Source of the DNA: Luteolibacter rhizosphaerae
GTDB lineage: Bacteria > Verrucomicrobiota > Verrucomicrobiia > Verrucomicrobiales > Akkermansiaceae
Assembly: GCF_025950095.1 (NCBI RefSeq)
Contig: NZ_JAPDDR010000009.1
Location: forward strand, 62,001 to 126,000
DNA: 64,000 nt
Reading direction: 5' to 3'
Of this stretch, positions 2 to 52,993 are shown in pieces. Made by a program: the position numbers and the translations under genes. The notes beneath the pieces were generated by a model, which had not been told where the DNA came from, ran no database searches, and was given only the letters and a program-made list of their open reading frames with translations. Numbering within the stretch: position 1 is the first letter of the stretch; each line of letters starts with the position of its first letter.

Positions 2-340
2 TCCGGCCCGCCCTCGCTGATCTCCACCTTCGATTTCCCGATCGAGAAAATCTACTACCGCGACAGCTCGGATGTTTACTGGTGCGCCGAGAACATCGAG
101 CGCGGCAAAGCTTTCGAGCCGCGCCAAGTGCAACCCACCGAGGTGCTGAGCTTCGTGAACGAGGCGAAGTCGAAGCTCTCGACGAGGAGTAAAGAGGCAC
201 TGTCGAAGCTTTCACCGCTTGAACGAGGCGACCGGCATTTCATCGCTGTTAGTGCCGCAGCGCCGGGTATCGATACGTTCAAGGGGATCGAGTGGAAGGA
301 GACGAAGACCTTCATCACCGGCCCCGTCGCTCTTCCCTGA
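2..340 (+). CDS. C-terminal part of an unrecognised protein (5' end outside window)
   Basis: An open frame runs from the window edge to TGA at 338-340, giving 112 residues of a C-terminus. It has no membrane segment or signal peptide. The readable part is mixed polar with segments such as SSDVYWCAENIERGKAF and FITGPVALP at the very end. I do not recognise a family. It lies 49 bases upstream of the ABC transporter ATPase on the same strand, but a run of 7-nt repeats separates the two, so it may belong to a different transcript. That it is coding rests on uninterrupted frame and codon choice; its function cannot be inferred. Confidence 0.6.
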   Translation, partial: SGPPSLISTFDFPIEKIYYRDSSDVYWCAENIERGKAFEPRQVQPTEVLSFVNEAKSKLSTRSKEALSKLSPLERGDRHFIAVSAAAPGIDTFKGIEWKETKTFITGPVALP

Positions 341-347
341 AGTCTCC

Positions 348-389
348 CCGACTTGGCACTTGTTACTTCTTACTTGGAACTTTTCCCCG
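348..389 (-). repeat. Degenerate 7-nt tandem repeat array (AAGTTCC type)
   Basis: Read on the minus strand, 382 to 348 is five consecutive heptads: AAGTTCC, AAGTAAG, AAGTAAC, AAGTGCC, AAGTCGG. The adjoining 383-389 ttccccg is in phase and ends exactly at the ATG of the ABC transporter ATPase. The same heptad type recurs at 3843-3912 and near 20665-20760. Confidence 0.75.
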
Positions 390-1409: not shown

Positions 1410-1415
1410 TTTTCC

Positions 1416-2960: not shown

Positions 2961-3838
2961 CCCGCGACGAGATCTCCCGCTGCCACTCCCGGGCACTGGC
3001 CGCATCCGGCCGCTTGCGCCTCCCCCTGCGCTCACGCGTGTGGAAGGGCCAGGCCGGTGAATTCCAAGGGGCGGGTGTCGGTTCCTCGCTCGATTTCCAA
3101 GACCACCGCACCTACGTGCCGGGGGACGATCCGCGCCACATCAACTGGCAGGCTTACGCAAGGACCGGCCAATATACGATGAAGCTCTACCGCGAGGAGG
3201 TCCGACCGGTGGTGGACGTGGTGCTGGATGCTTCCGAGTCGATGTTCTTCGACACGGAGAAGGCGGAGCGCAGCGCCGAGCTCTTTTGCTTCGCAGTGGA
3301 ATCGGCGCGTCGTTCGGGTGCCGCGACCGCGGTGTATCTGGTGCGCGGCGATGCAGTGCGACCGGTGCCTCCGGAGACGATAAGCGTGCACCGCTGGCTG
3401 GAGGAGGCGCGGGCGTTGAAGCCCTCCGACGCGGCGATGCCGCCGGACTTCTCCCGAATCCCCTTTCGTGGGAATGCGATCCGGGTGCTGGTGTCCGACC
3501 TGCTTTTCCCCGGCGATCCGGACCATGCGATCCGCCTGCTGGCGGCGCGGCAGGGCAGCCCGATCCTGCTTGCACCCTTCCTGCAGAAGGAAGCGGCTCC
3601 AGAGTGGACCGGGAACTACGAGTTCATCGATGCCGAGCGCAACTCGCGGCACCACCACCGGATCGAGCCCTCCGTGCTGAAACGCTACAAGGAGGCATAC
3701 ACCAACCACTTCGCTATGTGGAAGAACGCCGCGCGGCGGCACCAGTGCCGGATGGCGCGGGTGGCTTGTGAGACCGATCTCCAGACGGCGCTCTTCGCGG
3801 AAGCCCTGCCAAGCGGAGCGCTGGAGACGACGAATTAG
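2957..3838 (+). CDS. DUF58 domain protein (MoxR/VWA cluster component)
   Basis: A 293-residue soluble protein with the diagnostic DUF58 core: RTYVPGDDPRHINWQAYART at about residues 53-72, followed by a VWA-like fold whose first strand and metal-site-like loop reads VVLDASESM near residue 94. DUF58 proteins occur in MoxR-AAA+/VWA gene sets, thought to act with an AAA+ chaperone in assembling or activating envelope or metal-dependent complexes; that role is family knowledge and not shown here. No moxR gene is inside the window; it could lie left of base 1. The gene overlaps the permease by ATGA. The next VWA gene begins 755 bases later because a HicB-like gene and repeat arrays intervene. Confidence 0.9.
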   Translation: MTRDEISRCHSRALAASGRLRLPLRSRVWKGQAGEFQGAGVGSSLDFQDHRTYVPGDDPRHINWQAYARTGQYTMKLYREEVRPVVDVVLDASESMFFDTEKAERSAELFCFAVESARRSGAATAVYLVRGDAVRPVPPETISVHRWLEEARALKPSDAAMPPDFSRIPFRGNAIRVLVSDLLFPGDPDHAIRLLAARQGSPILLAPFLQKEAAPEWTGNYEFIDAERNSRHHHRIEPSVLKRYKEAYTNHFAMWKNAARRHQCRMARVACETDLQTALFAEALPSGALETTN

Positions 3839-3842
3839 GCCG

Positions 3843-3912
3843 AAGTTTCAAGTGAGAAGTTCCAAGCGGAAGGCGGGAAGATCCAAATTCTAAACTCTAA
3901 GATTCAAGTTTT
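3843..3912 (+). repeat. Ten consecutive degenerate 7-nt repeats (AAGTTCC type)
   Basis: Seventy bases divide without gaps into ten heptads: AAGTTTC, AAGTGAG, AAGTTCC, AAGCGGA, AGGCGGG, AAGATCC, AAATTCT, AAACTCT, AAGATTC, AAGTTTT. The array starts 5 bases after the DUF58 stop codon and ends 25 bases before the HicB-like start. It has no coding frame of its own. It resembles the short tandemly repeated heptamers described in cyanobacteria, but the consensus here is different and the copies are loose. Confidence 0.85.
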
Positions 3913-3936
3913 GTCCGGAGACCGAGGGTCGATAGC

Positions 3937-4599
3937 ATGCAAGTTATGAAGGGGAGGTTTACCGCAGTGATCGAGGCCGCCGAGGAGGGCGGCTTTTGGG
4001 CGTATTGCCCGGAGATCGCGGGTGCCAATGGCCAAGGCGACACGCAGGAAGAAGCTGAAGCAACCCTGAATCAAGCAATTCAGCTGCTGCTTGAGTCGCA
4101 GGCCTTGGAGGAAGCGCCTTGGATGTTTGAAGCCGCTCGTCTCGGAGTCGCGACGCCTGAATCCATCATAGCGTGGTCTGATGCGAAGGTCATGGATCTG
4201 GACCGCCCGCCCTTTTTCCTGATCGAGCTTTCGACATTGAGAAGCTCCGACAGCAGGAACTATGCGTCCGTGATCCAAGCTCACGTGCCTGAAACTCTGG
4301 ATGCCGAGCAGAGGATTTCCCTCGTTGTCACGGCCTTCGATCAACAGGTTATCGACTTGGACGAGGCCCTCCCTATCCTGTTCAGGCTGTGGCTTCCTTT
4401 GCCACCGGAAAAACCGACGAGCGGAATTCCGGAACATGTCGCCGACCTGTTGGCGGAATGGGACATTATCTCCGACGTGGAACCCCTGCCCGAGGACTTC
4501 GTCTCACGCTGCATGACGGTCTTCGCCCATCATCGTGAGCAGCACGGCAGCCCGCCATCCGCCATCTTCCATCTGCCATCCACCATCTCCTCGTGCTGA
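3937..4599 (+). CDS. HicB-like domain protein with unknown C-terminal region
   Basis: A 220-residue protein. Residues about 5-50 (FTAVIEAAEEGGFWAYCPEI, then a GDTQEEAEATLNQAIQLLL helix) match the HicB/UPF0150 fold, the partly degraded RNase-H-like domain used by HicB antitoxins. The remaining 170 residues are not recognised; there is no obvious ribbon-helix-helix DNA-binding domain and no hicA-sized toxin gene next to it, so an antitoxin role is doubtful. It is the odd one out in the ABC/DUF58/VWA cluster: codon use looks less GC-rich than its neighbours, a 7-nt repeat array precedes it and a second array (4554-4588) is read as its last residues, PPSAIFHLPSTISS. Its stop overlaps the next gene's GTG start. 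ATG at 3946 is an alternative start. Confidence 0.75.
   Translation: MQVMKGRFTAVIEAAEEGGFWAYCPEIAGANGQGDTQEEAEATLNQAIQLLLESQALEEAPWMFEAARLGVATPESIIAWSDAKVMDLDRPPFFLIELSTLRSSDSRNYASVIQAHVPETLDAEQRISLVVTAFDQQVIDLDEALPILFRLWLPLPPEKPTSGIPEHVADLLAEWDIISDVEPLPEDFVSRCMTVFAHHREQHGSPPSAIFHLPSTISSC
4554..4588 (+). repeat. Five degenerate 7-nt repeats (GCCATCY type) inside the 3' end of the HicB-like gene
   Basis: The heptads are GCCATCC, GCCATCT, TCCATCT, GCCATCC and ACCATCT in unbroken phase. They encode the atypical tail of the HicB-like protein and end just before the GTG start of the BatA-like gene at 4593. The unit differs from the AAGTTCC arrays but has the same 7-nt period. Confidence 0.8.
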
Positions 4600-6431
4600 C
4601 GCTTGCCAACCCTGCCGGCCTTTGGGCGCTCCTCGGGATTCCCGCGGTGCTGGCGATCCATTTCCTGCAACGGCAGTCGGTGTTGCTGCCGGTGTCCACC
4701 CTGTTCCTGTTAGAGAAGACGCAGCGCGAATCGGCGAGCGGACGGAAGTTCGACCGGCTGATGAACTCGGTACCGCTGTGGATGCAGTTACTCGGGGTGC
4801 TGCTGCTGACCTGGCTACTGGCGGAGCCGCGTTACCAGAAATCCCGCAGCACGCAGCGGGTGGCGATCGTACTGGATTCGTCCGCCTCGATGGCGGTGGC
4901 GAAGGACAAACTGAAGGAGAAGCTGGTAGCCTCCCTGCCCGACTTGCAAGGACCTGCCGCGGTGCTGGACCTGACGCTGCTGGAAAGCACGCCGGGCAAG
5001 CCGCGGCTCTATGCCGGAAATTCTCCCGAAGAGTTTGCCGCGGCGCTGGACGACTGGAAGCCGCGCGCGGGTCTGACCGATCCCGCCCATGCGCTGAGGC
5101 TGGCTCGCTCGCTGGTTTCACGCGACGGCATCGTGGTTTACGCCACGGACATCCCGATCGAGGCGCCGCCCTTCGACGCGCGCGTCGTCTCCGTGAGCGA
5201 GCCGGTGGACAATGTCGGCTTCACCGGTCTGAGCATCGGCGAGAAGGAAGGCGCACGGGTTTTCCAAGCGCTGGTGAGGAACTACTCCAAGTCCAGCAGC
5301 TCGCGGACCTGGCAATTAGAGCTGCCGGACGGACAGAAGACGGAGCCGAAGTCCTTCGACCTGGAACCGGGTGGGATCGTCACCTTGCAGGCGGCCTTCC
5401 CGACGAATGCCTTGAAGGCGCGGCTGGTGCTTTCGCCGGATGCCTTCACGCTCGACGACACGCTGCCAATGGTGGTGGCCCAGCCGAAGAAGCTGAACCT
5501 CTTCGCCGCCACGGGCGATGCCTACGAGGAACTCTCCAAGAAGTTGCTCCGCTCGCTGGAGTCCACGGAAGCGGTGAACGACACGGCCTCCGCCGACCTG
5601 ACGATCCTGTCCTACGATCCCCTGGATCCGGTGACGGCCACCGGCAATGCGATCGTTTTCGTGCGCGACGACACGCGCGGCGGTGCCTACCTGAAGGGCG
5701 GGATCGTGGCGGAGAAGAGCACGCTGATCGACGGGCTAAACTGGCAGTCCCTGCTGGTGCGCGAGACGATTCAACTGCAGCGTCGCGACGCCGACAGCGT
5801 GCTGCTGTGGCAGGGTGACCGGGCGCTGATTTTCCTGCGCGAGACCCCGGCCAGCGGAGAAACCCCCGCTTCGCGGCAGCTCTGCTTCAACTTCGACCTG
5901 CGGCTCTCGAACGCCGAGACCCAGCCGGCATTCATCGTGATGCTGCACCGTTTCGCGGAGGAGCTGCGAGCCGCGAAGGTGGCCCCGGCGACCGAGAATC
6001 TGGAGACAGCACAGCCCTTCGTGATCGCAGCGAAAACTGGAGCGGAGTCGCCCGACCTGCTGATCGAGACGCTGGACCTGGCGGGCAAGGTAATCGAGAC
6101 CAAGGACGAGCCTGTGGCTGGCAGCGTGCGTCTGGAAGCTCCGCTGGATTCCGGCTTCCTGCGAGTTCGGCAGGGTGACACGACGCTGCTGGAGGCGGGT
6201 GTCTACTTCGCCGACACCCGCGAGGCGGACTTTTCCCAATGCGCGGCGGTGGACACGATCGGCACGGGCAGCAGCGCGCTGGTCGAGCGGCATACCGAGG
6301 AAGATCACCTGTGGCGTACCTGGTTCCTGGTGCTGCTGGCCGCGCTGCTGATTTCATGGCATTTCACGCGTGAGCGGGAGGCCCGGAAATCGCAGGCTCC
6401 CCTTAGCCCCCAACAGGAGAATCCCGCATGA
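4593..6431 (+). CDS. BatA-like membrane protein with VWA domain
   Basis: A 612-residue inner-membrane protein. It opens with the BatA N-terminal signature: a first membrane helix (GLWALLGIPAVLAIHFLQRQ) and a second near residues 58-76, flanking SVLLPVSTLFLLEKTQRESA. A VWA-like domain follows, with the metal-site motif DSSASM near residue 94. The middle, about residues 200-550, is probably periplasmic and beta-rich. A final helix (WFLVLLAALLISWHF) near residue 575 gives a short cytoplasmic tail. The start is GTG at 4593, overlapping the preceding gene; no better start is visible. Its TGA overlaps the ATG of the lipoprotein gene. By family, it should work with the DUF58 protein, the double-VWA protein at 6829 and a MoxR ATPase not seen in the window. 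Confidence 0.87.
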   Translation: MLTLANPAGLWALLGIPAVLAIHFLQRQSVLLPVSTLFLLEKTQRESASGRKFDRLMNSVPLWMQLLGVLLLTWLLAEPRYQKSRSTQRVAIVLDSSASMAVAKDKLKEKLVASLPDLQGPAAVLDLTLLESTPGKPRLYAGNSPEEFAAALDDWKPRAGLTDPAHALRLARSLVSRDGIVVYATDIPIEAPPFDARVVSVSEPVDNVGFTGLSIGEKEGARVFQALVRNYSKSSSSRTWQLELPDGQKTEPKSFDLEPGGIVTLQAAFPTNALKARLVLSPDAFTLDDTLPMVVAQPKKLNLFAATGDAYEELSKKLLRSLESTEAVNDTASADLTILSYDPLDPVTATGNAIVFVRDDTRGGAYLKGGIVAEKSTLIDGLNWQSLLVRETIQLQRRDADSVLLWQGDRALIFLRETPASGETPASRQLCFNFDLRLSNAETQPAFIVMLHRFAEELRAAKVAPATENLETAQPFVIAAKTGAESPDLLIETLDLAGKVIETKDEPVAGSVRLEAPLDSGFLRVRQGDTTLLEAGVYFADTREADFSQCAAVDTIGTGSSALVERHTEEDHLWRTWFLVLLAALLISWHFTREREARKSQAPLSPQQENPA

Positions 6432-6832
6432 AGATGCTGCCCCTCATGACCCGCCCTACCCTGTGCGTGCTCGTCGGCCTGAGCGCCAGTTGCGCCAGCA
6501 CGAAGGCGTGGCGGCACAAGGACCAATCGGTGACGGTGGCCCGGAAGGGCACGCTCTTCAGCCCGGGCGAGCCAACCAGCTACTGGCTGGTGGGAGCCAA
6601 ACCGGGACAGATCCAGCGGGCCGATGATGTATCGATCTACCGCAAGCAGAAGGGCAGCAAGGCGATCCCGCTGAATTGCACCGGCTTCATCGACACCACG
6701 CACCGCGGCCGGATCGAGGTGCAGATCGCGGAGAAGATGGGCGGCAATTGGCAGATCGCCCGCGTGAACGGCACCCACAAGCTGCGCGACGAGAACGCGC
6801 CGAAGCCCTTTTATCACTGGCTCATCCCATGA
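6428..6832 (+). CDS. Small predicted lipoprotein in the VWA cluster
   Basis: A 134-residue protein with a hydrophobic N-terminus ending in the lipobox LSASC (Cys21), so it is probably lipid-anchored in the envelope after export. The mature part is small and basic, with two Trp/Tyr-containing strands (TSYWLVGAKPGQ) and the pattern of a small beta-barrel-like domain; no family is recognised. This is one of few genes here with a clear ribosome-binding site, AGGAGA seven to twelve bases before the ATG. Both ends overlap neighbours as ATGA (6428-6431 and 6829-6832), so it is firmly part of the VWA operon and may assist its membrane proteins. Confidence 0.8.
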   Translation: MKMLPLMTRPTLCVLVGLSASCASTKAWRHKDQSVTVARKGTLFSPGEPTSYWLVGAKPGQIQRADDVSIYRKQKGSKAIPLNCTGFIDTTHRGRIEVQIAEKMGGNWQIARVNGTHKLRDENAPKPFYHWLIP

Positions 6833-9555
6833 CTTTCGGCTCCCCAGAATGGTTCCTGATCATCCCCGTCTGCCTCTTCGCCGGGTGGTTCTGGAAGAGC
6901 CTGCGCCTGTGGTCGCCGCTGCGGCTGATCCTGGTATTGCTGGCAGCATTCGGGCTGGCGGATCCGAAGGTGAACGTGACCGAGGACGCGATGGACCTGT
7001 GGGTTCTGCTCGACCGATCCGAGTCCACGGAAGACTTGGTGGACAAGGGTCTGTTGGAATGGGAACCGCTGCTGGAGAAGGCCAAGCCAAGCCGCCGCGA
7101 CAAGATGCACCTCTTCGACTACGGGGGGGAGATCGTGGAGCACGGCAGCGATGGCGCGAGCTACACGGGATCGCGCAAGCTGACCCGCACCGGGCTGGCG
7201 ATTTCCCACGTGACGGCGCTGGCGAATGAGAAGCGCCCATCCCGGGTGCTGATCTTCACCGATGGCTTCGCCACGGAACCGCTGCATGAGGCGGTGGAGG
7301 AACTGCAAGCACGGGGTATCCCGCTGGACTTCCGCTTGGTGCGGGAGGAAACCCTGAATGACTTCCGCTTGTCCCGGATCGAGCTGCCGGAGCGGGTGCA
7401 GGCGGGCGAACCCTTCCTGATCGCGGCGACGGTGCGCGGTTCGACCGATGCCGACGTGAAGCTGATCCTGCGCCGTGGCAAGCAGACCCTCACCGAGACC
7501 ACGGTGAAGCTGGTGAACGGTGTGGGCCGGGCGGAGTTCACGGACCGGCTGACGCGTTCCGGATCCTTCCAGTATGAGGCGGAGGTGAGCGTGATCTCAG
7601 GCAGCGGACTGAGCGATGCTCATCCCGGCAACAACCGTGCAGCGCGTTGGATCGAGATCGCGGGCGGCCCCCGCGTGCTGCTGGTCAGCAAGTATACCGA
7701 CGACCCGGTGGCAAAGGTTCTGTCCTCGCTGGACTTCACCGTGGACGTGGCCACACCGCAGGAGCTGAACCCCGGCCGCCTGAGCGGGGCGCGGGCGGTG
7801 ATCTTCAACAACGTGCCGGCCTACGAGGTTCCCCTGCCCTTCATGAACGCGCTCGACTTCTTCGTGCGCGAGCAGGCGGGTGGCTTCCTGATGGCGGGCG
7901 GCAAGCAGTCCTTCGGCTCGGGAGGCTATTTCCAATCGGCGATCGACACGCTGCTGCCGGTTTCGATGGAGCTGAAGAACGAGCATCGCAAGCTGGCGGT
8001 GGCGCTGGCGATCGTGCTCGACCGCTCGGGCTCCATGTCGGTGAGCGTGGGTCCGGGTGCGGGTGGCATGGATCTGAAGAAGATGGACCTGGCGAATGCC
8101 GGTGCGGCGGAAGCGATCGGTCTGCTCGGCGTGCAGGACTACATCTGCGTGCATGCCGTGGACAGCCAGCCGGAGGAGGTGGTGCCGCTCACACAGGTGA
8201 AGGGCAACCACGCCGCGCTGCAGGCGCGGGTGCGCAAGGTGCAGTCGATGGGTGGCGGTATCTTCGTTTACGAAGGCTTGAAGGCTGCGTGGGACGAATT
8301 GAAAAACGCTCAGGTGGGAACGCGCCACGTGATCCTCTTCACCGACGCGAACGACACGGAAGAGCCGGGGGACTACAAGAACCTGCTGGAAGAGATGAAG
8401 AAAGAAGGCTGCACCGTTTCGGTGATCGGCCTCGGGACACCGGCGGATGTCGATGCGAAGCTGATCGAGGATATCGGCAAGCGCGGCGAGGGACGGGTCT
8501 TCTTCACCGACCGGCCGGTGGATATCCCGAAGATCTTCGCGCAGGAGACGGTGACGATCGCCCGCTCCGCGTTCCTGGAAGATCCGGTGGGTGCGCAGCC
8601 AACCGGGCGCTGGGCGGAGGTCTCGCCGAAGCTGTTGGAGTGGCTGCCGCAGGTCGACGGCTACAATCTTTCGTATGCGCGGGAAGACGCGACGACTTCG
8701 CTGGTGAGCAAGGACGAGTATGTAGCACCGCTGGTAGCGCATGCGCGGCGCGGCTTGGGCCGCAGCGCGGCGGTGTCCTTCCCGCTGGGCGGCGAGTTCT
8801 CGCAGGGGATCCGGGATTGGCAGGGGTACGGCGACTTCGTGCAGACCATGACGCGCTGGCTGATGGGGATGGATTTGCCACCGGGAATCGGCCTGAAGCA
8901 TCGGCTGGATGGCACACGACTGACGCTCGACCTGCTCTACGACCCGGAGCTGTGGTCCACCAAGCTGACCGCTGCTCCTCCGCTCTTGCGTATGATGGAG
9001 AGCGGTCCCGGGGCGAAGCCCTATGACGTGCCGTGGAAACGCATCGCGCCGGGCCATTTCTCCGTGACCCGGGATCTGGATGAAGGCGCGGTCGTGCGTG
9101 GCGCGATCCAAGTGGGCGAGCATGCGCTGCCCTTCGGCCCGCTGACGGTGGGATCCTCCGTGGAGTGGGCCTTCGAGCCGGAACGTCTGGCCGAGCTCCG
9201 CACGGTCTCCTCACTCACGGGTGGCCGGGAGCTGCTCGATCTGTCGAAAGCGTGGCTGCGCCCGCCCTCGAGGCAGGATGTCTCGCTGCGTCTGTGGATT
9301 GCGCTGGCGATGTTGGTCTTCCTTATCGCCGAAGCCCTGCTGACCCGGACCGGTTGGAAGCTGCCGATCCCGGCGCTGCCGAGCTTCGAAAAACGCGAGA
9401 AGATCGTGAAGCCGAAGAAGGTGAAGGCGCCGAAGCCGGAAGCTCCGGTGATGCCGACCGTGCCGGATGAGAAGCCAATCGTAACCGCCAAGCAGGAGCC
9501 AGCCGACGAGTCGGAGCGGCGATCGAGATATCAGCGCGCAAAAGATAAGCGATAG
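6829..9555 (+). CDS. Large membrane protein with two VWA-type metal sites and a glutamine-amidotransferase-like fold
   Basis: A 908-residue protein. Two N-terminal helices (residues about 6-36) lead into a first VWA-like domain with DRSES at 62-66 and TDGF near 141. A beta-sandwich stretch follows, then a class-I glutamine-amidotransferase-like Rossmann segment around 280-380 (RVLLVSKYTDD, FLMAGGKQSFGSGGY) that shows no clear catalytic Cys. A second VWA domain has the full metal motif DRSGSMS starting at D398 and FTDANDTEE later. A helix near residues 824-842 is followed by a Lys/Pro/Glu-rich cytoplasmic tail of about 60 residues. The frame is open upstream to 6676, but ATG 6829 overlaps the lipoprotein stop, the rule throughout this operon. 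By family it belongs with DUF58/BatA proteins; its substrate is unknown. Confidence 0.87.
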   Translation: MTFGSPEWFLIIPVCLFAGWFWKSLRLWSPLRLILVLLAAFGLADPKVNVTEDAMDLWVLLDRSESTEDLVDKGLLEWEPLLEKAKPSRRDKMHLFDYGGEIVEHGSDGASYTGSRKLTRTGLAISHVTALANEKRPSRVLIFTDGFATEPLHEAVEELQARGIPLDFRLVREETLNDFRLSRIELPERVQAGEPFLIAATVRGSTDADVKLILRRGKQTLTETTVKLVNGVGRAEFTDRLTRSGSFQYEAEVSVISGSGLSDAHPGNNRAARWIEIAGGPRVLLVSKYTDDPVAKVLSSLDFTVDVATPQELNPGRLSGARAVIFNNVPAYEVPLPFMNALDFFVREQAGGFLMAGGKQSFGSGGYFQSAIDTLLPVSMELKNEHRKLAVALAIVLDRSGSMSVSVGPGAGGMDLKKMDLANAGAAEAIGLLGVQDYICVHAVDSQPEEVVPLTQVKGNHAALQARVRKVQSMGGGIFVYEGLKAAWDELKNAQVGTRHVILFTDANDTEEPGDYKNLLEEMKKEGCTVSVIGLGTPADVDAKLIEDIGKRGEGRVFFTDRPVDIPKIFAQETVTIARSAFLEDPVGAQPTGRWAEVSPKLLEWLPQVDGYNLSYAREDATTSLVSKDEYVAPLVAHARRGLGRSAAVSFPLGGEFSQGIRDWQGYGDFVQTMTRWLMGMDLPPGIGLKHRLDGTRLTLDLLYDPELWSTKLTAAPPLLRMMESGPGAKPYDVPWKRIAPGHFSVTRDLDEGAVVRGAIQVGEHALPFGPLTVGSSVEWAFEPERLAELRTVSSLTGGRELLDLSKAWLRPPSRQDVSLRLWIALAMLVFLIAEALLTRTGWKLPIPALPSFEKREKIVKPKKVKAPKPEAPVMPTVPDEKPIVTAKQEPADESERRSRYQRAKDKR

Positions 9556-9642: not shown

Positions 9643-12504
9643 GTGCTCGCCCTAAGCCTTTTCCCGTTTGACGCCATTTTGCCCGGATGGTGGCTCGCCG
9701 CCTACTTGGCTTTGATGGTTCTGCTTCCGGTCTTCGTGCTGGGGCTGATCGCGGTCAGGGTGCGAATGAAGCTCTGGCGGGTGCCGCAGCATTCTGAGGT
9801 CCAGCCCGCTCAGATCGCGGATGAGGTGCGGCGCTACACGCAGCCTTGGCTAGGACGCCTCGGGTTCCTGGGCTTTACCAACCAGAGCTGCGTTTCAGGA
9901 CGAGATGCAAACGATCGCGAGCACTACCAGTGGCGGATGGTCCACGGCAACGATCGCTGCGTGGCGCTGGTGAAGGCCTTGGTCTCCGGAGAGGGTCGCC
10001 CCCTGCTGCAACTCACGCTGCTCTCCTTCCTACCTGACGGTCGGGTGGTCGTGAGTGCCGACCGCCCGATCGCGCCGGTGTTGCCCAAGCACTGGGAGGA
10101 AGCGCACCGGCAATTCGCAACCCTGCAGGACCAGCTCCAGTTCCACCGCCAACGGATGGAAGGTCAGACGGCGGTAATGCCCCAGGCGGCCGCGCTGGGC
10201 AGCCGTCTCGCTGTGGAAGAGCAGGCCTTGTTCGACGCACTGATGGCAAGCGGCCGGTTTACCGCCATCCCCGGGGAAAGCCCGGCAGCCTGTGCGTCCA
10301 TCGCGGCCCTGCCGAAGCTCACGTTCCAAGGTTTTCTCGGACTGTTCAATGCCCGCGGCTCGGGACGCCGCACCGACGTGGCTTCCGTCTCCAAGCGCAA
10401 AGATCCGGACGAAGAAGGAGCACCGGCCGCGGAGTTCAAGCGGACGAAGGAGCAGATCGTGGAGGACTACCTGAAGTCCTACCGTGCGCGGACCGCTCGC
10501 AAAGCCGACGGAAAGTACTACTTCCTCCGTATCCTGATTACAGCGGTAACGGTGGCCGTGCTCTTCTTCGCTTTCGGCAAGGGCAATCCGGTCTCGACCG
10601 TTCTAACAGCATTGGGACTGATCGCTATCCATGACTTCGGCCACTGGATCATGATGAAGCTCTTCGGCTACCGCGGGATGGGCCGCTTCTTCATCCCTTT
10701 CATCAGCCCTGTCGACCGGGGACGGAAGCTGCATGCACCTGCATGGCAGCAGCTCACCGTGATCCTGGCAGGTCCGCTGCCCGGCCTGATGGTAGGCATG
10801 GCGGTGCTAGTGACCGGATACTTCAGCCCGAGCCTGCCGCCACTGGCACCGGAAATCGGGGCGATGGCGGTGCTGCTGAATGCCTTCCACCTGCTGCCAT
10901 TCCTGCCACTCGACGGCGGCAAGGTGGTGGACCTCCTGATCTTCCGTGACCTGCCTTTCCTGAGGCCTCTTTTCACGTTGAGCTCCGCAATCGCGGTGTT
11001 CGCCGCTTCGATCTTCACCGGGCCCGCCGGGCGGGTGCTGCGCTATGTCGCGATCACGATGTTCGCGGGACTGGCTTGGGACATCAAGATGATCAAGGTG
11101 GTCCGCGGCGGGCGCCGTCTCGGCTGGTCGGACGCCGAGGACGAGGACGAAACCCTACGCCGCATCTTCAAAGGCATCCATGAAGAGGAGAACAACGGGT
11201 TCTTCCGCGATCCGAAATGGCCGCGACAGATCGAAGTGCTACTGGGCGAAGTGATGCGCAAGCGTCCCGGCTTCCTGATGCGGATCTTCGGCGGCGGGCT
11301 CTACGGTGCGGTCTTCGTGCTCCCCTTCGCGCTCGTGATTGGTTCGCTGGCGATCGCTTCGTTCGGTCTCTTCGGAGCGATGGCGAATACGGGGGAAGCC
11401 GGGGAGGAATACGAGAAGGATTTCCCCACCATGACCGCCGGCATCCAACCGGCCCACACGGGTCCGATGGACCGGCTGCTGGAAGCCACCCATGATGAGG
11501 ACGAGAGCGAGGGTCTGGAGGATAGGTCCGGCAAGAAGCGGACCGAACTTGCTGCGGAGAATTCCGCCAAACTGCTGCCGCTGCTCGACCGGCTGAACTG
11601 GCAACATGCCGGGCTGGCTTACCACCAGGAAGATTTCCACGACTACGAACTCTCCCTCTGGCTGGAAGTTCTCTGCTCAAAGCTGGAAAGCAGCTGGAAG
11701 AGCGAGGCCCACGCCGAGGCCCTGGTCCGAGCCGAAACGCTGCTGCACGCCGTGAATTCGCTGGAGCCCGCGATGTCGCAGAAGGATCGAGAGTTGCTGT
11801 GCGATGCGGAGTTGCGGGCGCTGGCCGTAGTCGAACGTCTCGGAGCTTCCGGCAAGCTGGACGCCGTCGCGCTGGACCGCTTGGACAAACGTATCAGCCT
11901 CTTGAACAAGGCTCCCCTTCCCGAGGTGGAGAACAAGCTGCTGGTCTCCGGCTGGAACGAGGCTTGTCTTGAACGTGCGATCGGGCCGGTGGACATGGCC
12001 GACCCCGGGAAAGATGACGGCTCGGAAGTCTGGCAGGACGCCTACCGCCTGATCGGAGCAGGGATCGAGAATCTGGGTAATCTCGGCAGAAAGCCGGTAT
12101 GTCTGGCTCTCGCCGCAGAGTGGAAGAAAAGCCGGCGCGTGGGAATCCTGCCCGGAAACCTGGCAGGAGCGGAGCACATCAGTCCCCGCGAAGCCGATTA
12201 CATCACCCGCTTCTGCGACAATCACAACCGGATGGCTTGGAGGCGTCTGGTAACCCTCTCCGCGCTGAGATTGGAGGCCCATCGCCTGAAGAACGGAAGG
12301 CTCCCGGCGTTATGGAAGCACAGTCTCCCGGGGGGCGCCGTTGTGGAACTGGATCAGACTACCGGTCCCTACCTGCGGTTAAGCGACCGGCGTGGGCAGG
12401 TAGGGATGAATTTGCCTGCTTGGGTGACTCAGACGGGTGTCACGCAGGCCCGCCTGGACTACGACTGCCCGCTCTTCGGAGCACCCGAACTGTCGAAGAA
12501 GTAG
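9643..12504 (+). CDS. Large M50-like (site-2 protease family) membrane protein, variant HDFGH motif
   Basis: A 953-residue protein. An N-terminal membrane helix (residues about 10-40) precedes a roughly 250-residue cytoplasmic-type region, then a membrane core with the site-2 protease signatures: IAIHDFGHW (H330, D331, H334), HAPAWQQL, AGPLPG, and LLPFLPLDGGK with D424 as third metal ligand. The usual catalytic glutamate of HExxH is aspartate here. Two further membrane helices (about 563-590) lead to a 370-residue soluble C-terminus ending in a conserved motif (LDYDCPLFGAPE). Normal site-2 proteases are 350-450 residues, so this is much larger. The gene at 12951 is a full-length relative. Start GTG 9643 is chosen because it includes the first helix; ATG 9715 is possible. 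Possibly a regulatory or pseudo-protease partner. Confidence 0.82.
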   Translation: MLALSLFPFDAILPGWWLAAYLALMVLLPVFVLGLIAVRVRMKLWRVPQHSEVQPAQIADEVRRYTQPWLGRLGFLGFTNQSCVSGRDANDREHYQWRMVHGNDRCVALVKALVSGEGRPLLQLTLLSFLPDGRVVVSADRPIAPVLPKHWEEAHRQFATLQDQLQFHRQRMEGQTAVMPQAAALGSRLAVEEQALFDALMASGRFTAIPGESPAACASIAALPKLTFQGFLGLFNARGSGRRTDVASVSKRKDPDEEGAPAAEFKRTKEQIVEDYLKSYRARTARKADGKYYFLRILITAVTVAVLFFAFGKGNPVSTVLTALGLIAIHDFGHWIMMKLFGYRGMGRFFIPFISPVDRGRKLHAPAWQQLTVILAGPLPGLMVGMAVLVTGYFSPSLPPLAPEIGAMAVLLNAFHLLPFLPLDGGKVVDLLIFRDLPFLRPLFTLSSAIAVFAASIFTGPAGRVLRYVAITMFAGLAWDIKMIKVVRGGRRLGWSDAEDEDETLRRIFKGIHEEENNGFFRDPKWPRQIEVLLGEVMRKRPGFLMRIFGGGLYGAVFVLPFALVIGSLAIASFGLFGAMANTGEAGEEYEKDFPTMTAGIQPAHTGPMDRLLEATHDEDESEGLEDRSGKKRTELAAENSAKLLPLLDRLNWQHAGLAYHQEDFHDYELSLWLEVLCSKLESSWKSEAHAEALVRAETLLHAVNSLEPAMSQKDRELLCDAELRALAVVERLGASGKLDAVALDRLDKRISLLNKAPLPEVENKLLVSGWNEACLERAIGPVDMADPGKDDGSEVWQDAYRLIGAGIENLGNLGRKPVCLALAAEWKKSRRVGILPGNLAGAEHISPREADYITRFCDNHNRMAWRRLVTLSALRLEAHRLKNGRLPALWKHSLPGGAVVELDQTTGPYLRLSDRRGQVGMNLPAWVTQTGVTQARLDYDCPLFGAPELSKK

Positions 12505-12506
12505 GG

Positions 12507-12530
12507 AGGTAAGCTTCGGGAGAAGCACCT
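12507..12530 (+). terminator. Hairpin after the first M50-like gene
   Basis: AGGT-aa-GCTTC-ggga-GAAGC-ACCT forms a stem of nine pairs with a two-base bulge, beginning 3 bases after the stop codon. There is no T-run after it, so it may be a 3'-end stabiliser or a weak terminator. Confidence 0.45.
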
Positions 12531-12950
12531 TGTGGCTGGGGGATTGCACTGTAATCCGGCTACGAAATCATGTACAAATAGGCGGGGGACATGACGGGTT
12601 CTTTTAAAAACACCCTGAGACTACCCTTATCCTTGAAGCTGAGGACAAGGCAGCGGCCTAGCACCACGGCTCCATAGAATATCAATTTACCTTAAGTACT
12701 TCAATGAGATGCGGACAGGTAGACCGAGGGGGATTTTCGGACATCCGCGCTTGATCCCTACTCCAAAGCCAGATCGGTCGATCAGATCATAATATACCTA
12801 AAACCAACGAATAAGGACAAAACCAAGAGACGAAATCCGCCCAGGAAATTGTCACATTACGCGAAAAAGTCGCCCTTCGCGGAAAAAGTCATTTGCATGA
12901 AAGTAAAACGAACTTGATTTTTTTACAAATCAGACCTTACTCGGCCGCGG
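12531..12950. other. Long non-coding gap between the two M50-like genes
   Basis: About 420 bases without a credible gene and noticeably more A/T-rich than the surroundings. It holds a near-perfect direct repeat, GCGAAAAAGTC at 12861-12871 and GCGGAAAAAGTC at 12879-12890, 60-90 bases upstream of the second gene's ATG, and a T-rich stretch (12917-12924) followed by ACAAATCAG. A similar AAAATCAG stands upstream of the first gene. These are plausible regulatory sites. I see no tRNA or obvious structured RNA in it. Confidence 0.5.
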
Positions 12951-15806
12951 ATGCCCCCAGCATTTCTAGGCATGACCTTTGGTCTCGTCCTACTGGCCCT
13001 TGTCTTTGCGACGGGCCTGCCGCTGATCTGTGCCTTCATCGCTCTGATGAACGTGCGACGCTATCGGGTGAAGGCGCACCCCTGCGAAGCGCATGTGATC
13101 CCGACCGATGTGAAGCGCCGGATGGCGCCATGGTTGAACCGCTTGGGTCACTTCGGTTTCCGGCAGGTTCAGATCGCCCGTCTTGAAAGCGCCGGATTCG
13201 CGGAAGCCCACCGCTGGATTCTGGTAAACGACGAGGAGAAGACTTACGCGACGCTGGAGCGCACGGTGCCGGTCTCCGGTGCGGGTCCGCGGGTATCGCT
13301 CTCCCTCTTCACGCCGCTGCGGGATGGCACCCTGATCGTTACCCTTGATCGCCGTCTCACGCGCCATCCCCCCTCGTGGTGGCGGGACGTGCAGCGCTAC
13401 TTCGGCACGGTGACTTCCCAGTGGAAGCATCACTACGCCCGCATCCGCGGTGAGCAGGAGAGGATCCTGCCAGCGACGGAGAAGTTCACCGAGATGTTGG
13501 CCGCCGATGAGGAGGCCCGGCATGCGGCATTGGTGGCCGGCGGCGAGTTCACACCGACTCGCCAGGATCCTGACGTGCTGCGCCTGCGCTTGGCCTGTCT
13601 TCCTTCCCGGGTGCTGCCGATGCTGGGAGACTTCTTCCGTGGCGGTTACCTCGGTTCCACCTCGCGCCGGGACGTGGCGGCTCCAGCAAAGGCGAAGACG
13701 GATGAGTCCGAACGCATCGGAGGGGCCATCGGGCTTTCGCTGAATCAAGCGGTCGAGCAGGACCTCACCCGCTACCGTGCCCTGCAAGCGGTAGGATCCA
13801 GTCCTCTCGACCACGTGCGGCGCTTGGTGCTGCTCGCCGGAACGATCGCGTTCTTCATCTTCCTCTTCGGGCAGGATCAGCCGCTGCAAACGGCGCTCAC
13901 GGTGGTGGTGCTCTCCGCCTTGCACGAGGCCGGGCACTGGCTGCCGATGCGCCTCTTCGGGTATCGCGGGATTCCGCCGCTCTTCATCCCGTTCACCGGC
14001 GCGACCGAGCGCGGGCGCAAGCTCCATGCTCCGGCTTGGCAACAGCTGGTGGTGGCCCTTGGCGGTCCCCTGCCCGGCCTGATCGCCGGCCTGGCGATGC
14101 TGGCGCACGGCTATTTCCGCCCGGACACGCCGCTATGGCTGCTGGATGCGGCAGGCATGGCGGTGGCGCTGAATGCCCTTCACCTGCTGCCGGTGCTACC
14201 GATGGACGGCGGCAAGATCATCGACCTTCTGGTTTTCCGCGATCTGCCGCTGTTGCGCCCCTTCTTCACTGTCACCGCTTCGATTTCCGCCTTCGCCGCT
14301 GCAATGGTTCTGAAGTCGCGGGTGCTGAAGCACATCGCGATGGCGATGCTGGGCGGTGTGATCTGGGACGTGCGCACGATTCAAGTGGTGCGCGGTGCCC
14401 GCAAGCTACCATGGGCCGGAGAGGTGAACGACGAAGGCGAAGCCTTGCGCCGTATCTTCCGCGGCCTGCGCCAGGAGGGCCATGGCTCCTTCATCGGCAG
14501 CGATGGCTGGCACAAGAAAATCGAGGCACTCCTGATGGAGGTCATGCGGAAGCGACCGAACCTGGCGACCCGCTTCGCCGGTGGCGGCCTGCTTCTTACT
14601 GCCGGAGCGATGCCCTCGCTGCTTTTCGTCGGCGTGCTGCTCGGTCCCGTGCTCGGCGATGCCGGACGCATGGTGCGCACAGTCGAGCATGTGTCCGAGT
14701 TCCGGAAGATCTATCCGAGGGAGAACCGCACGCTTTCCGCCGAAGACCGGCTGACTCTTACCGAGCTCGCGGCGGATACCGAAAAGGCTCCCGACGGCAC
14801 GCCCACACCGAACCTCGACCGGCCGCGTGATGTGGCCGTGGCCTTGGCCTCCGTGCTCGGGCCGCGCGTCGACAAGGTGGATTGGCAGAAGGCGACGATC
14901 GCGTCACGCACCAACGTGATCAGTGCCCATGTCCTACCGATCTGGGTCGAGGTGCAGGTCCGCCAGCTTGAACTTTCCGCTGCGGACAACCGGGGACCGG
15001 AAACCGTTCGCCGCGCCGAAGTGCTGCTGCATCTTTTCTCCGAGATCGAGCCAGCCACCAGCTACGAGCGGCGCGAGGCCTTCACGCAGGCGGAGCTCCG
15101 GGTGCTCTCGATCGTCGAACGCGAAGCGGGTGCGGGCCGTCTCGACGGGATGTCTCTCGGCCGTCTCGACGAACGTATCTCCGAGCGCAACGTGGCCCCG
15201 GTGCCGGAGGTGGAAGGCCTTCTGCTGGTGGCCGCTTGGGCCGAACGCAGTCGTCTCTCCGCCATTTCGGATGCCGCCGCCCAGGCCTCCCTCGATCCCC
15301 GTTTCTGGCGCGATCTCTATCCGCGGATTCGCACGGTGCGGCGGCTTCTGGCAGAACAGAATTCCACCTTGGTGCCGGCTTCTGTTGCCCTTGCGCGCCA
15401 CTGGAACAACACACGCCGGGTGGGCGAGTTACCGCCGCAGATTGGCATGCCCGTCGCCGTGTCTGCCGGTGAGGCGTCCCTGATCCTGGACTTCTGCGAA
15501 CAGCATCGCCGTCTCACCTGGCGGCGTCTCTCCACGCTTTCCGCGCTGCGACTCGAAGGTCACCGCCAGAAAAAGGGCAGCCTGCCCCCGATGTGGAAGC
15601 ACACCGTTCCAGGTGGAGCGATCATCGAGTTGCACAAGGATTCCGGTCCTTATCTCCGGCTCACCGACCGCCGCGATCAGATCACGCGGCGCATTCCCAC
15701 CTGGCTTGCACCAGCCACCCTGCCGGTGCCTCCAAGCGGCCCCTCGCTCGATTACGATTGCCCGCTCTATGGTGCCCCTGCTCTTCCGGAGCTGTCGCAT
15801 AACTGA
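12951..15806 (+). CDS. Large M50-like (site-2 protease family) membrane protein, intact HEAGH motif
   Basis: A 951-residue relative of the preceding gene with the same layout: N-terminal helix (about residues 8-32), a long soluble region, a membrane protease core, two more helices near 540-575, and a soluble C-terminus closing with LDYDCPLYGAPA. Here the zinc/catalytic motif is complete: LHEAGHW (H325, E326, H329), with LLPVLPMDGGK supplying D419. The protein is therefore a plausible active intramembrane metalloprotease. Similarity to the first copy is strongest in the core (FGYRG, HAPAWQQL, GPLPGL) and in the last 70 residues (MWKHTVPGG, GPYLRLTDRR). Substrates are unknown. ATG 12951 is used; no Shine-Dalgarno sequence is visible. 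Confidence 0.85.
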   Translation: MPPAFLGMTFGLVLLALVFATGLPLICAFIALMNVRRYRVKAHPCEAHVIPTDVKRRMAPWLNRLGHFGFRQVQIARLESAGFAEAHRWILVNDEEKTYATLERTVPVSGAGPRVSLSLFTPLRDGTLIVTLDRRLTRHPPSWWRDVQRYFGTVTSQWKHHYARIRGEQERILPATEKFTEMLAADEEARHAALVAGGEFTPTRQDPDVLRLRLACLPSRVLPMLGDFFRGGYLGSTSRRDVAAPAKAKTDESERIGGAIGLSLNQAVEQDLTRYRALQAVGSSPLDHVRRLVLLAGTIAFFIFLFGQDQPLQTALTVVVLSALHEAGHWLPMRLFGYRGIPPLFIPFTGATERGRKLHAPAWQQLVVALGGPLPGLIAGLAMLAHGYFRPDTPLWLLDAAGMAVALNALHLLPVLPMDGGKIIDLLVFRDLPLLRPFFTVTASISAFAAAMVLKSRVLKHIAMAMLGGVIWDVRTIQVVRGARKLPWAGEVNDEGEALRRIFRGLRQEGHGSFIGSDGWHKKIEALLMEVMRKRPNLATRFAGGGLLLTAGAMPSLLFVGVLLGPVLGDAGRMVRTVEHVSEFRKIYPRENRTLSAEDRLTLTELAADTEKAPDGTPTPNLDRPRDVAVALASVLGPRVDKVDWQKATIASRTNVISAHVLPIWVEVQVRQLELSAADNRGPETVRRAEVLLHLFSEIEPATSYERREAFTQAELRVLSIVEREAGAGRLDGMSLGRLDERISERNVAPVPEVEGLLLVAAWAERSRLSAISDAAAQASLDPRFWRDLYPRIRTVRRLLAEQNSTLVPASVALARHWNNTRRVGELPPQIGMPVAVSAGEASLILDFCEQHRRLTWRRLSTLSALRLEGHRQKKGSLPPMWKHTVPGGAIIELHKDSGPYLRLTDRRDQITRRIPTWLAPATLPVPPSGPSLDYDCPLYGAPALPELSHN

Positions 15807-16152
15807 GCAGACAGTCGGTTGCGGCCGGAATTGTCGCTTGTGATTACGTGGGCTGCTAGTCTGCTGCGATCCCAACAGCGCATCGACCAAATCCCGATAA
15901 CTACTCCGTGAACTACGGGATGGGATTGTTCCCGAATTAAGGGAGACCCTGTTAGCTTAACCGGAGATAGGCGAGGAGATCTGAGCAACACCCCGCCAAT
16001 ACCCTGATACCAAGCGATTTGCAGAATGCATCCTTACGGAGAGGCGTGGTTAGAAATATCCATCCGCATTATACCGTCAGATTGATTTTCCGACTTGTTA
16101 TAGGATGCGGGATTATCTAACGGACGCACGGCATCTCCTGCCACCCCCAAGT
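15807..16152. other. Non-coding gap before the small secreted protein gene
   Basis: About 346 bases with no convincing reading frame on either strand and more A/T in its right half (for example 16044-16120). I see no clear promoter pair, tRNA or terminator-like hairpin. It probably holds the promoter of the gene at 16153, but I cannot place it. Confidence 0.4.
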
Positions 16153-16638
16153 ATGAAGACACTGTTCCTCCACCTCCTCGCATTCTGTGCGGTCCTCGCT
16201 CCCGTGAACATGGCGCAAGCCCGGGCACCCAAACCCCCGGTTATCATCGGCGGCTTTGAAGTCGGGAAGACCTTCACCCTGCCCATTACCTTCCGGGATT
16301 CCTCCTCCCAAGTGGCAGGCGGCGAGCCCCAGCCGGTGGCTCCGCCGGCCGGTATCCCGGCTTACACCGAAGGCCAACAGATCAAGTTCACCATCGGCAA
16401 GAAGGGCGAGCTGCTCGCCCCGGGAATCAAGATCCCCTTCAAGACCGCGACGGATCAGAACAACATTTACGTCGGGCTTCCCACTCGGAAGGCCCCGACC
16501 CCGCCGCTCGCCACGGTCTACAAGAACTCGGAAGGCGAGCCCACCGGCGTGTGGCTGCAATTCGTGAAGGTAAAGATCGTGAAGCGGATCCCGACCGTCT
16601 ACTACGTGAACTACGGTGTGGGTGACTTCCCGCGCTAA
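16153..16638 (+). CDS. Small predicted secreted protein, unknown function
   Basis: A 161-residue protein with a classic signal peptide (MKTLFLHLLAFCAVLAPVN, cleavage likely after AQA near residue 23). The mature part is about 138 residues, rich in Lys, Pro and Val, with a Pro-rich segment (QPVAPPAGIP) and alternating hydrophobic residues suggesting a small beta-sheet domain; it ends in VYYVNYGVGDFPR. No family is recognised. The frame extends upstream to 16105, but only the ATG at 16153 gives a proper signal peptide. It stands alone between long gaps, followed by a strong hairpin. Confidence 0.75.
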   Translation: MKTLFLHLLAFCAVLAPVNMAQARAPKPPVIIGGFEVGKTFTLPITFRDSSSQVAGGEPQPVAPPAGIPAYTEGQQIKFTIGKKGELLAPGIKIPFKTATDQNNIYVGLPTRKAPTPPLATVYKNSEGEPTGVWLQFVKVKIVKRIPTVYYVNYGVGDFPR

Positions 16639-21040: not shown

Positions 21041-21121
21041 CCGCTCCGGAGGATTGATTGATTTCACGCCGCGCTTTTTTCCGGTCACATTCCGCCGGTG
21101 GTGCCGGATTCCGGCAGAATC

Positions 21122-23050
21122 ATGGAAGCGAGCGACCGCCAGCTGCTGAGCCGCTACATCGCCGGGCGCGATGAGACGGCCTTCCGTGCGCTGGTGATGA
21201 GGCATCTGCCGCTGGTCCACGGGGTGGCGCGGCGGGTCACGGCGAACGAGGATCTGGCGCGTGACGTGGCCCAGACGACTTTCATCCGGCTGGCGGAGCG
21301 TGCCGCCATGATTCCGCCGAATCTCCCACTGCCGGTGTGGCTGCACCGGATCTGCCGCCATCTCGCGATCGATCTGGTGAGATCGGAAGAGCGGAGGAAG
21401 AAGCGCGAACAGCTAGCACCCTCCGCCATGAACGAGCCGCAAGAGCCCGGGTGGTCCGCCTTGGCACCGCTGGTGGACCAATTGGTGAACGAACTGCCGG
21501 AGGCTGAGCGGCAGGTACTGCTGCTGCGGTATTTCTGCGATCAGGGGCATGCTTCCATCGCGGGCCAGCTCGGCGTGAGCGAGGTAGTCGCCCGGAAGCG
21601 GGCGTCGCGGGCCTTGGAGCGGCTGCGCGGCGCACTGGCCAAGCGCGGCATCGTCACCACGGCAGCAGCACTGGCGGCAGGCTTGCCTGCCCATGCCGCC
21701 CCCTCCCCGCCGGCGGCCTTGGCTGCGGGAGTCTTTGAAGCCACGCGGGGTATCGCACCGCTGGCCCCCTCCCCTTTTCACGCCGCCCTGATTGCCATGA
21801 ATGCCACGCAGAAAGCCTCCATCGCCGCTGCCTCGCTGATCTTCCTGATGTCCGCAAGCTACTCCGTGATCACGAGTGGCAGGGATGCGAGGGCGGACAC
21901 TTCATCCAACGGTGCTATCCCGTCCTTTGCAGTGGAGGGCGCGGGGGCATCCGAGCGCAGCCGCCGGGAAGCGCGTTTGCCGAGCAGCACGGCGGGACGC
22001 TTGGAACGGCTGAAGGAGATCCTGGAGATCGAGAGTCATGCGAGGCGCTACCGCGAGCTGACTTCGTTCATCGACAGATTGCGGCCCAATCAATTCCCCG
22101 AGGCGGCGGCGTTCCTCGGAGATCGTAACAAGGACCAATACACCTCCGTCGACGAGTACCACCTCTTCTTGGCCGCGTGGACCAAGGTGGATGTGCACGC
22201 CGCCCTGGCGCATGTGATGGCCGGGAAGAACATGTTCCATCTGGGGCGGGTTCTGGAGAGCTGGGCAGAGCAGGATCCCGGTGCGGCGCTTGCCTGGGCA
22301 AAGGCCAACCCGATCGGGAAGGAATCCAACAGATGTCTAGGTGATGTGCTCAGCGGCATCGCGGCCACGGATGTGAAAAGGGCTGTCGACGTCATCGAGA
22401 AGATTCCGGATCAAGCAACGAGGATCAGGATCTTGCTCGATCTGTGGGGGAGCTTTCACGAGCAGGCCGATGCGATGCCGAGATTGCTCCAGGAAATCGA
22501 GGAGCCGGCGCTACGCGAACGCTTGGTCGAGCGGGGCGTCATGATGGTGGCACATAGCTATCCTCCCGCGGCCGTGGACCTTCTGCTCCGGCACCCCGCG
22601 GTCGGAGGGCCCAACAAGATCGCCGAGGTCTATCAGGGTTGGGCGCAGCAGATGCCCGATGGCGCGATCTTGGGGCTAAACAAGCTTCAACCGGGGGCGA
22701 TCCGGCAGCAGGCGGTGATGCAGGTCTGCTTCACCGTCTCGATGACCGACCCAGCGAAGGCATTCAAGGTTCTGGAGAAGTATCCGGAGACGGCAACCGA
22801 TACCGGTGTGGCGAAGCTCGCCACCACCGCTGTCCTCGTAGACCCGCCCGGCATGATGGGTCGGATGATGGCTATTCAAGACACACGTCTCCGGGAGGAG
22901 ACGCTGCCGAATGCCCTGCATCACTGGCAAGAGCAGGATAAGGAGGCAGCGGAAGAATGGATCCGCCGGAATCCCATCCCGGAATCCGTGCAACAAGAGC
23001 TACGCGAGCAGCCGTCCGAAAACACCAACCTCGATCCCTCCGGCATATGA
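21122..23050 (+). CDS. ECF-type sigma factor fused to a membrane helix and helical-repeat domain
   Basis: A 642-residue protein. Residues 1-185 are an ECF sigma factor: region 2 (DETAFRALVMRHLPLVHGVA, DLARDVAQTTFIRLAERA, VWLHRICRHLAIDL) and region 4 (LPEAERQVLLLRYFCDQGHA, then the LGVSEVVARKRASRALERL helix-turn-helix). An Ala/Pro linker leads to one membrane helix near 231-251 (ASIAAASLIFLMSASYSVI). The remaining 390 residues should be outside the cytoplasm and consist of helical repeats with the recurring pattern DPxxALAWA. No separate anti-sigma gene is present, so the extension probably controls the sigma part. ATG 21122 starts two residues before the conserved region-2 sequence; GTG 21098 is an alternative. 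ATGA overlap links it to the next gene. Confidence 0.88.
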   Translation: MEASDRQLLSRYIAGRDETAFRALVMRHLPLVHGVARRVTANEDLARDVAQTTFIRLAERAAMIPPNLPLPVWLHRICRHLAIDLVRSEERRKKREQLAPSAMNEPQEPGWSALAPLVDQLVNELPEAERQVLLLRYFCDQGHASIAGQLGVSEVVARKRASRALERLRGALAKRGIVTTAAALAAGLPAHAAPSPPAALAAGVFEATRGIAPLAPSPFHAALIAMNATQKASIAAASLIFLMSASYSVITSGRDARADTSSNGAIPSFAVEGAGASERSRREARLPSSTAGRLERLKEILEIESHARRYRELTSFIDRLRPNQFPEAAAFLGDRNKDQYTSVDEYHLFLAAWTKVDVHAALAHVMAGKNMFHLGRVLESWAEQDPGAALAWAKANPIGKESNRCLGDVLSGIAATDVKRAVDVIEKIPDQATRIRILLDLWGSFHEQADAMPRLLQEIEEPALRERLVERGVMMVAHSYPPAAVDLLLRHPAVGGPNKIAEVYQGWAQQMPDGAILGLNKLQPGAIRQQAVMQVCFTVSMTDPAKAFKVLEKYPETATDTGVAKLATTAVLVDPPGMMGRMMAIQDTRLREETLPNALHHWQEQDKEAAEEWIRRNPIPESVQQELREQPSENTNLDPSGI

Positions 23051-52948: not shown

Positions 52949-52993
52949 CGCGGATGAGAGAGGTGGTGATCGAGGAAGTCTGAGGTCCGGGTT

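Follow-up and report, generated by a model that had tools for sequence, protein, structure and literature searches.

Two large M50 genes at the locus

The window (the whole stretch of Luteolibacter rhizosphaerae DNA that was analysed, 64,000 nucleotides) contains two neighbouring large genes, designated A and B. As an earlier sequence-only reading had claimed, these are ORFs encoding 953 and 951 residues with an M50 core: both are intact, they are homologous over their full length (39-40% identity) and each encodes a Pfam Peptidase_M50 domain. About 290 residues precede the M50B-type core in each protein and 400-470 follow it. The two genes are separated by an AT-richer gap of 447 bp. Their features are as follows.

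9643..12504 (+): gene A; 953 aa, GTG start, ORF intact; fast-evolving M50B paralogue with the motif HDFGH
9781..10296 (+): A, N-terminal alpha+beta domain, approximately residues 47-218 (alignments and hhalign N-domain profile)
10510..11103 (+): A, six-helix M50 core, approximately residues 290-487 (Pfam PF02163; SpoIVFB 2.1e-7, phmmer)
10630..10644 (+): A, HDFGH (residues 330-334), with codon GAC at 10633-10635 in place of the catalytic Glu
10903..10920 (+): A, LPLDGG with the third zinc ligand Asp424 (motif alignment)
11281..11391 (+): A, extra transmembrane helix C-terminal to the core (hydropathy)
11395..12501 (+): A, C-terminal helical domain, probably periplasmic, in which Cys858 and Cys942 are invariant
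12951..15806 (+): gene B; 951 aa, ATG start, ORF intact; slowly evolving M50B protease by sequence, with the motif HEAGH
12963..13064 (+): B, first transmembrane helix, residues ~5-38 (AlphaFold2 [AF2] helix 5-38; hydropathy)
13068..13586 (+): B, N-terminal alpha+beta domain (residues 40-212), mobile, predicted cytoplasmic (AF2 of the domain alone)
13803..14390 (+): B, six-helix S2P core (residues 285-480; Pfam, sequence matches, AF2, Foldseek)
13923..13937 (+): B, HEAGH zinc and catalytic motif (residues 325-329; motif alignment)
14196..14213 (+): B, LPMDGG (residues 416-421) with the third zinc ligand Asp419; the usual Asn of this segment is His411
14391..14561 (+): B, basic linker after the core (residues 481-537), predicted cytoplasmic (AF2; residue composition)
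14562..14681 (+): B, extra transmembrane helix, residues ~538-577 (AF2; hydropathy)
14682..15803 (+): B, C-terminal helical domain (residues 578-951), predicted periplasmic; it contains a long helix at 839-875, strands at its end, and Cys849 and Cys937

The M50 core

Peptidase_M50 is the sole domain detected by Pfam in either protein, and in both it lies mid-protein. The match in B (2.7e-7, 30.6 bits) is above the 27.2-bit cut-off and that in A (3e-5, 23.9 bits) is below it. PF02163 covers the core in all 20 aligned family members, and no CBS domain was found by Pfam in these 20. Neither protein matches an NCBIfam model, including the RseP equivalog TIGR00054. Sequence comparison with solved structures identifies SpoIVFB and MjS2P. 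The same two proteins are found by Foldseek with the AF2 model of full-length B (pLDDT 76, pTM 0.48), each with a probability of 1.00 and with modest E-values (3e-3 to 8e-2).

The HEAGH motif of B falls inside a predicted helix (residues 311-335). B thus has an HEXXH motif in a transmembrane helix, the Asp of a DG motif in a later helix, and PF02163 together with an S2P fold. HEXXH and DGG are kept in 11/11 B orthologues, and identity between the B protein described here and the other ten is 61-83%. By its motifs, fold and Pfam match B can be classified as an M50B member, and it is predicted to be an active one.

One residue near the active site departs from the usual pattern across the clade. 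The Asn of the N-x-x-P-x-x-P-x-D-G segment is commonly conserved in M50 proteins, and it is not taken here as family-defining. It is absent from B, where all 11 B proteins have His (His411, 14181-14183). The corresponding residue of A is 416 (10888-10890), which is His in most A proteins and Tyr or Gln in two. A sister lineage has Thr or Ala at this position, and most wider relatives retain Asn. This clade-wide replacement could alter catalysis, in B as well as in A.

Two further M50 frames are present in the host genome, one of 484 aa for an RseP-like protein and one of 407 aa, and A and B are thus additional to these. These other members are about half the size of A and B or less, in line with the earlier remark that ordinary site-2 proteases are less than half as large. 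An assignment of A or B as the RseP orthologue was rejected, given the separate RseP-like protein and the lack of any NCBIfam match.

Replacement of the catalytic glutamate in A

That A and B share an M50 core was correctly recognized from the letters alone; the difference between their catalytic motifs, HDFGH in the first and HEAGH in the second, had been missed. When 19 orthologues of A and B are aligned across the 196-residue core, the change of Glu to Asp (D331) is the sole departure of A from positions that are invariant in the 18 other proteins. The catalytic Glu is present in all 18 of these, including the seven other A orthologues (HEFGH in 7/7), and in 80 of 81 M50 relatives from a scan of public genomes (the remaining one is unreadable). 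The codon for residue 331, GAC, is one base away from GAG or GAA and is known from one assembly. The zinc ligands of A are complete (H330, H334 and D424).

A therefore lacks the catalytic Glu expected of an active M50B peptidase, and is an M50 homologue whose activity is in doubt. In SpoIVFB, the equivalent residue E44 is presumed to activate water (PMC9042235), and the E44Q substitution completely abolishes activity (PMC11486902). Asp is a milder substitution than Gln and can leave some activity, so that A may still cut, though slowly. Because it lacks the catalytic Glu but keeps the zinc ligands and the rest of the core, A of this genome is more likely to be a weakened enzyme, a decoy or a regulator than a second full protease.

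The core is the most conserved part of A, with a mean identity of 62% vs 40-57% elsewhere in the protein. A is only 43-46% identical to its orthologues, whereas B proteins from the same genome pairs are 72-83% identical; the much faster evolution of A extends to all of its domains.

The N-terminal domain

The N-terminal domain of B was modelled alone with high confidence (AF2; pLDDT 91.3, pTM 0.85) and consists of a helix, six strands and a helix. It has no sequence match in Pfam, NCBIfam or the PDB, and a fold search against the PDB gave no meaningful match (best E-value: 0.08, TM < 0.3). The flanks had been described as matching nothing recognizable. This holds as far as a name or an assigned role in Pfam, NCBIfam or the PDB is concerned; the N-terminal flank, however, is a recurrent domain that is also found in other phyla.

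M50 proteins of 850-1050 aa also occur in other Verrucomicrobiota, in Planctomycetota, in Vicinamibacteria and in Undibacterium. A profile was built from ten such proteins, with Undibacterium left out. Comparison by hhalign relates the N-terminal flanks (probability 98, E-value: 2.7e-13, 166 columns) and the cores (probability 100) of A and B to those of the ten. The N-terminal flank is thus homologous, by profile comparison, to that of large M50 proteins in other Verrucomicrobiota, Planctomycetota and Vicinamibacteria. Contrary to the earlier reading, neither the size nor the flanking regions can be called peculiar to this pair, since proteins of this size are found in four other groups and the N-terminal flank is homologous in three of them.

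The domain is also found in proteins of ~450-590 aa that lack M50 and have approximately four transmembrane segments; there it is placed C-terminally. One of these is encoded in the host genome (L172:538-1944; G000:C2, around 407507), and in two congeners, G006 and G008, they occur as neighbouring pairs (L199, L200, L203 and L204). The domain is found once behind a GYF_2 domain, in a 297-aa protein (L184). Because it is present in proteins with and without M50, it is a mobile domain, mostly of membrane proteins. This confidently modelled unit (pLDDT 91), which occurs with and without a protease, could be given a name and studied as a module.

The C-terminal domain and membrane topology

In the model, the C-terminal domain of B is mainly helical (pLDDT about 90), and a long helix and short strands form its end. 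A near-identical LDYDCPL-GAP motif had been noted at the C-termini of A and B. The motif is real and common to the pair; across the family its Cys is invariant (19/19) and most of its other positions vary. The C-terminal domain has two invariant cysteines, Cys849 and Cys937 in B (19/19; Cys858 and Cys942 in A).

The profile search proposed for both flanks was successful for the N-terminal one and found no C-terminal homologue outside the lineage: by hhalign, the C-terminal flank has no detectable relation to the C-terminal flanks of the ten distant large M50 proteins. Outside the host genome, a sequence-level survey of 188 sampled genomes of the class detected the domain in no other proteins, and searches against the PDB gave no sequence match and no clear fold match. 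At the level of sequence, it appears confined to the Luteolibacter-type A/B lineage. In the sister lineage, partial alignments extend past the core (L046, L085), and these C-terminal flanks may represent a diverged version of the domain. A pseudopilin-like fold for the C-terminal end was suggested by the long helix and strands of the model; no search supported it.

Basic residues are concentrated around the N-terminal domain and after the core, and the stretch past the last helix is not basic. The active site of an S2P core faces the cytoplasm. Taken together with the invariant Cys pair, this K/R bias and core topology suggest that the N-terminal domain is cytoplasmic, that the core is arranged as in SpoIVFB, and that the C-terminal domain is periplasmic and disulfide-bonded.

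Distribution and pairing

The host belongs to the Akkermansiaceae (Verrucomicrobiota). Across 260 genomes of this family, 12 of 18 congeners gave strong matches, the host genome included; weaker, core-level matches were found in three genomes of one other genus. Named relatives within the genus include Haloferula sp. BvORR071 and Luteolibacter marinus. Ten other genomes of the genus carry full-length orthologues, which speaks against a chance occurrence, and a partial one is present in G004. Within the genus the sequences form two groups, A and B. In the tree, the B proteins form one supported clade, at whose base lies the only G004 protein, and the relations among the A proteins are partly resolved.

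B is found in 11 genomes and A in eight. A never occurs without B (8/8), and B occurs without A in 3/11 (G003, G011 and G012). Only three of the eight genomes with both genes have them adjoining (the host genome G000, G009 and G015), and those of G015 are separated by other ORFs. In the five genomes where A is at a different locus from B, the two are ~14 kb apart (G006, G008) or on different contigs (G005, G007, G010). A paired system whose members are always in tandem, which phylogeny and occurrence were to check, is not borne out by these counts: the tandem arrangement is a trait of a few genomes and not of the system. Co-expression of A and B is not assured, because the gap between them is 447 bp and AT-richer and because other ORFs can intervene. 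A tblastn search of B against PLSDB gave no match, so B does not appear to be plasmid-borne.

Gene neighbourhood

In most genomes B adjoins the same genes, which encode a small secreted protein, FolC, AccD, a ComF-like protein and a CPBP/Rce1-like protein (identified in part by Pfam and otherwise read from sequence). In the window, the small secreted protein (16105-16638, 177 aa) has no Pfam match; its gene is kept near FolC and is usually next to B. It was considered as a substrate of B, and this was rejected because in G011 it is apart from B and still near FolC, so that the linkage is not specific to B. No obvious candidate substrate is conserved beside the A and B genes in the congener neighbourhoods examined.

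Just upstream of A (219-9555) is a run of genes encoding an ABC transporter, an unnamed 514-aa protein, and DUF58, BatA and VWA proteins. A functional link between A and this run was rejected, as no homologous run is near A in the congeners examined. In G008 (L035/L036) and G006 (L037/L038), a giant SdrD_B-containing gene (> 3,500 aa) and three conserved genes lie between A and B. A role as a defence system was also considered; PADLOC gave no match.

Two other features of the window may be recorded here. The gene at 21098-23050 encodes a 650-aa sigma-70 protein of the ECF type, whose long C-terminal extension follows a putative transmembrane segment. A tandem pair of 868-aa FG-GAP repeat proteins (50342-55600, - strand; 54% identical) represents another tandem duplication.

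Proposed model and alternatives

The proposed model is that B is an accessory, active site-2 (M50B) protease and that A is an old, faster-evolving paralogue which in this genome is catalytically impaired (probability roughly 0.55). In B, an N-terminal helix and the compact domain on the cytoplasmic side would lead into the six-helix core, where His325, His329 and Asp419 would bind zinc and Glu326 would activate water. The basic cytoplasmic linker would be followed by a seventh helix, and the C-terminal domain that this carries, helical and probably disulfide-bonded, would lie in the periplasm. The substrate of B would be a membrane protein, cut within the bilayer, and the soluble domains of B would sense a signal, pick this substrate, or both. 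Soluble domains that sense or select substrate are known from other site-2 proteases: SpoIVFB has a CBS domain and RseP has PDZ domains in this role. A, with its catalytic Glu changed to Asp and the remaining core conserved, probably binds metal and substrate and cuts slowly or not at all. Being poor at cutting, it may act as a modulator or decoy for B.

A possible reading, although with the odds against it, is that both proteins are active S2P-type proteases with different substrates. Asp331 would then be tolerated with reduced activity, and the two genes would be the products of an old duplication with no physical partnership. The HEFGH motif of all seven other A orthologues fits this, as does the conservation of the A core above its flanks, which selection for catalysis predicts. 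The separate loci of A and B in five genomes and the B genes without A agree with it also. However, Glu is otherwise invariant at the position of residue 331, its replacement in SpoIVFB (E44Q) is fatal to activity (PMC11486902), and A is found only together with B (8/8).

The proposed impairment of A can also be taken further. A would then be a recently disarmed pseudoprotease, one Glu-to-Asp change removed from an active enzyme, that titrates substrates or regulates B, and the pair would have a previously undescribed architecture in which a mobile cytoplasmic domain is combined with a periplasmic, disulfide-bonded sensor. This extension is offered tentatively, and the odds against it are considerable.

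An obligate heterodimer, the paired system of the earlier reading, in which A and B form one complex with one fully active subunit, is unlikely: A is never without B and is adjacent to it in G000, G009 and G015 and within ~14 kb in G006 and G008, but B stands alone in three genomes and is outpaced by A, by far, in the evolution of every domain. Most improbable is a base-call or assembly error that makes an ordinary active paralogue look impaired, since a single third-position base in one assembly and an otherwise unremarkable core are set against an ORF intact over 953 codons and an assembly that is 98% complete with 0 contamination.

The large multidomain site-2 proteases of Verrucomicrobiota, Planctomycetota and Vicinamibacteria have flanks with neither a family in Pfam or NCBIfam nor a relative of solved structure, and a search of the literature on M50 proteins of these groups found nothing relevant. 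If A is indeed a disarmed copy beside an active one, it would be a bacterial pseudo-S2P set apart from its active orthologues by one catalytic residue. To our knowledge, pseudo-S2Ps are known mainly from the plant protein EGY3.

Comparison with known systems

RseP, which has PDZ domains and four transmembrane helices, is like A and B an M50 intramembrane protease; unlike it, A and B match no RseP NCBIfam model. MjS2P of Methanocaldococcus jannaschii (M50B) shares with B the core fold (Foldseek probability 1.00, TM 0.56 target-normalised) and the zinc ligands. It consists of a core of ~220 aa only, and the flanking domains are absent.

SpoIVFB of Bacillus subtilis (M50B) is the best or second-best solved relative of A and B. 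All three have a six-helix S2P core, HEXXH-type and DG motifs and a soluble domain after the core. SpoIVFB differs in lacking such an N-terminal domain and the seventh helix, and its PDB chain is 288-314 aa vs 951. It also keeps the Asn of TM4 that is replaced in the A/B clade, and its C-terminal domain is a cytosolic CBS domain (PMC11486902), which A and B do not have.

Among the closest known proteins are the large M50 proteins of Verrucomicrobiota, Planctomycetota and Vicinamibacteria (such as L057, L058, L060, L062 and L064; ~850-1005 aa), which have a homologous N-terminal domain, an M50 core and HEXXH. Unlike A and B, they have a C-terminal domain that is not detectably related and they keep the TM4 Asn.

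EGY3, a pseudo-S2P of Arabidopsis, resembles A in being an S2P homologue with a defective catalytic motif and active paralogues (PMC12389704). EGY3 has no HExxH motif, whereas A changes one residue of it and keeps all of the zinc ligands.
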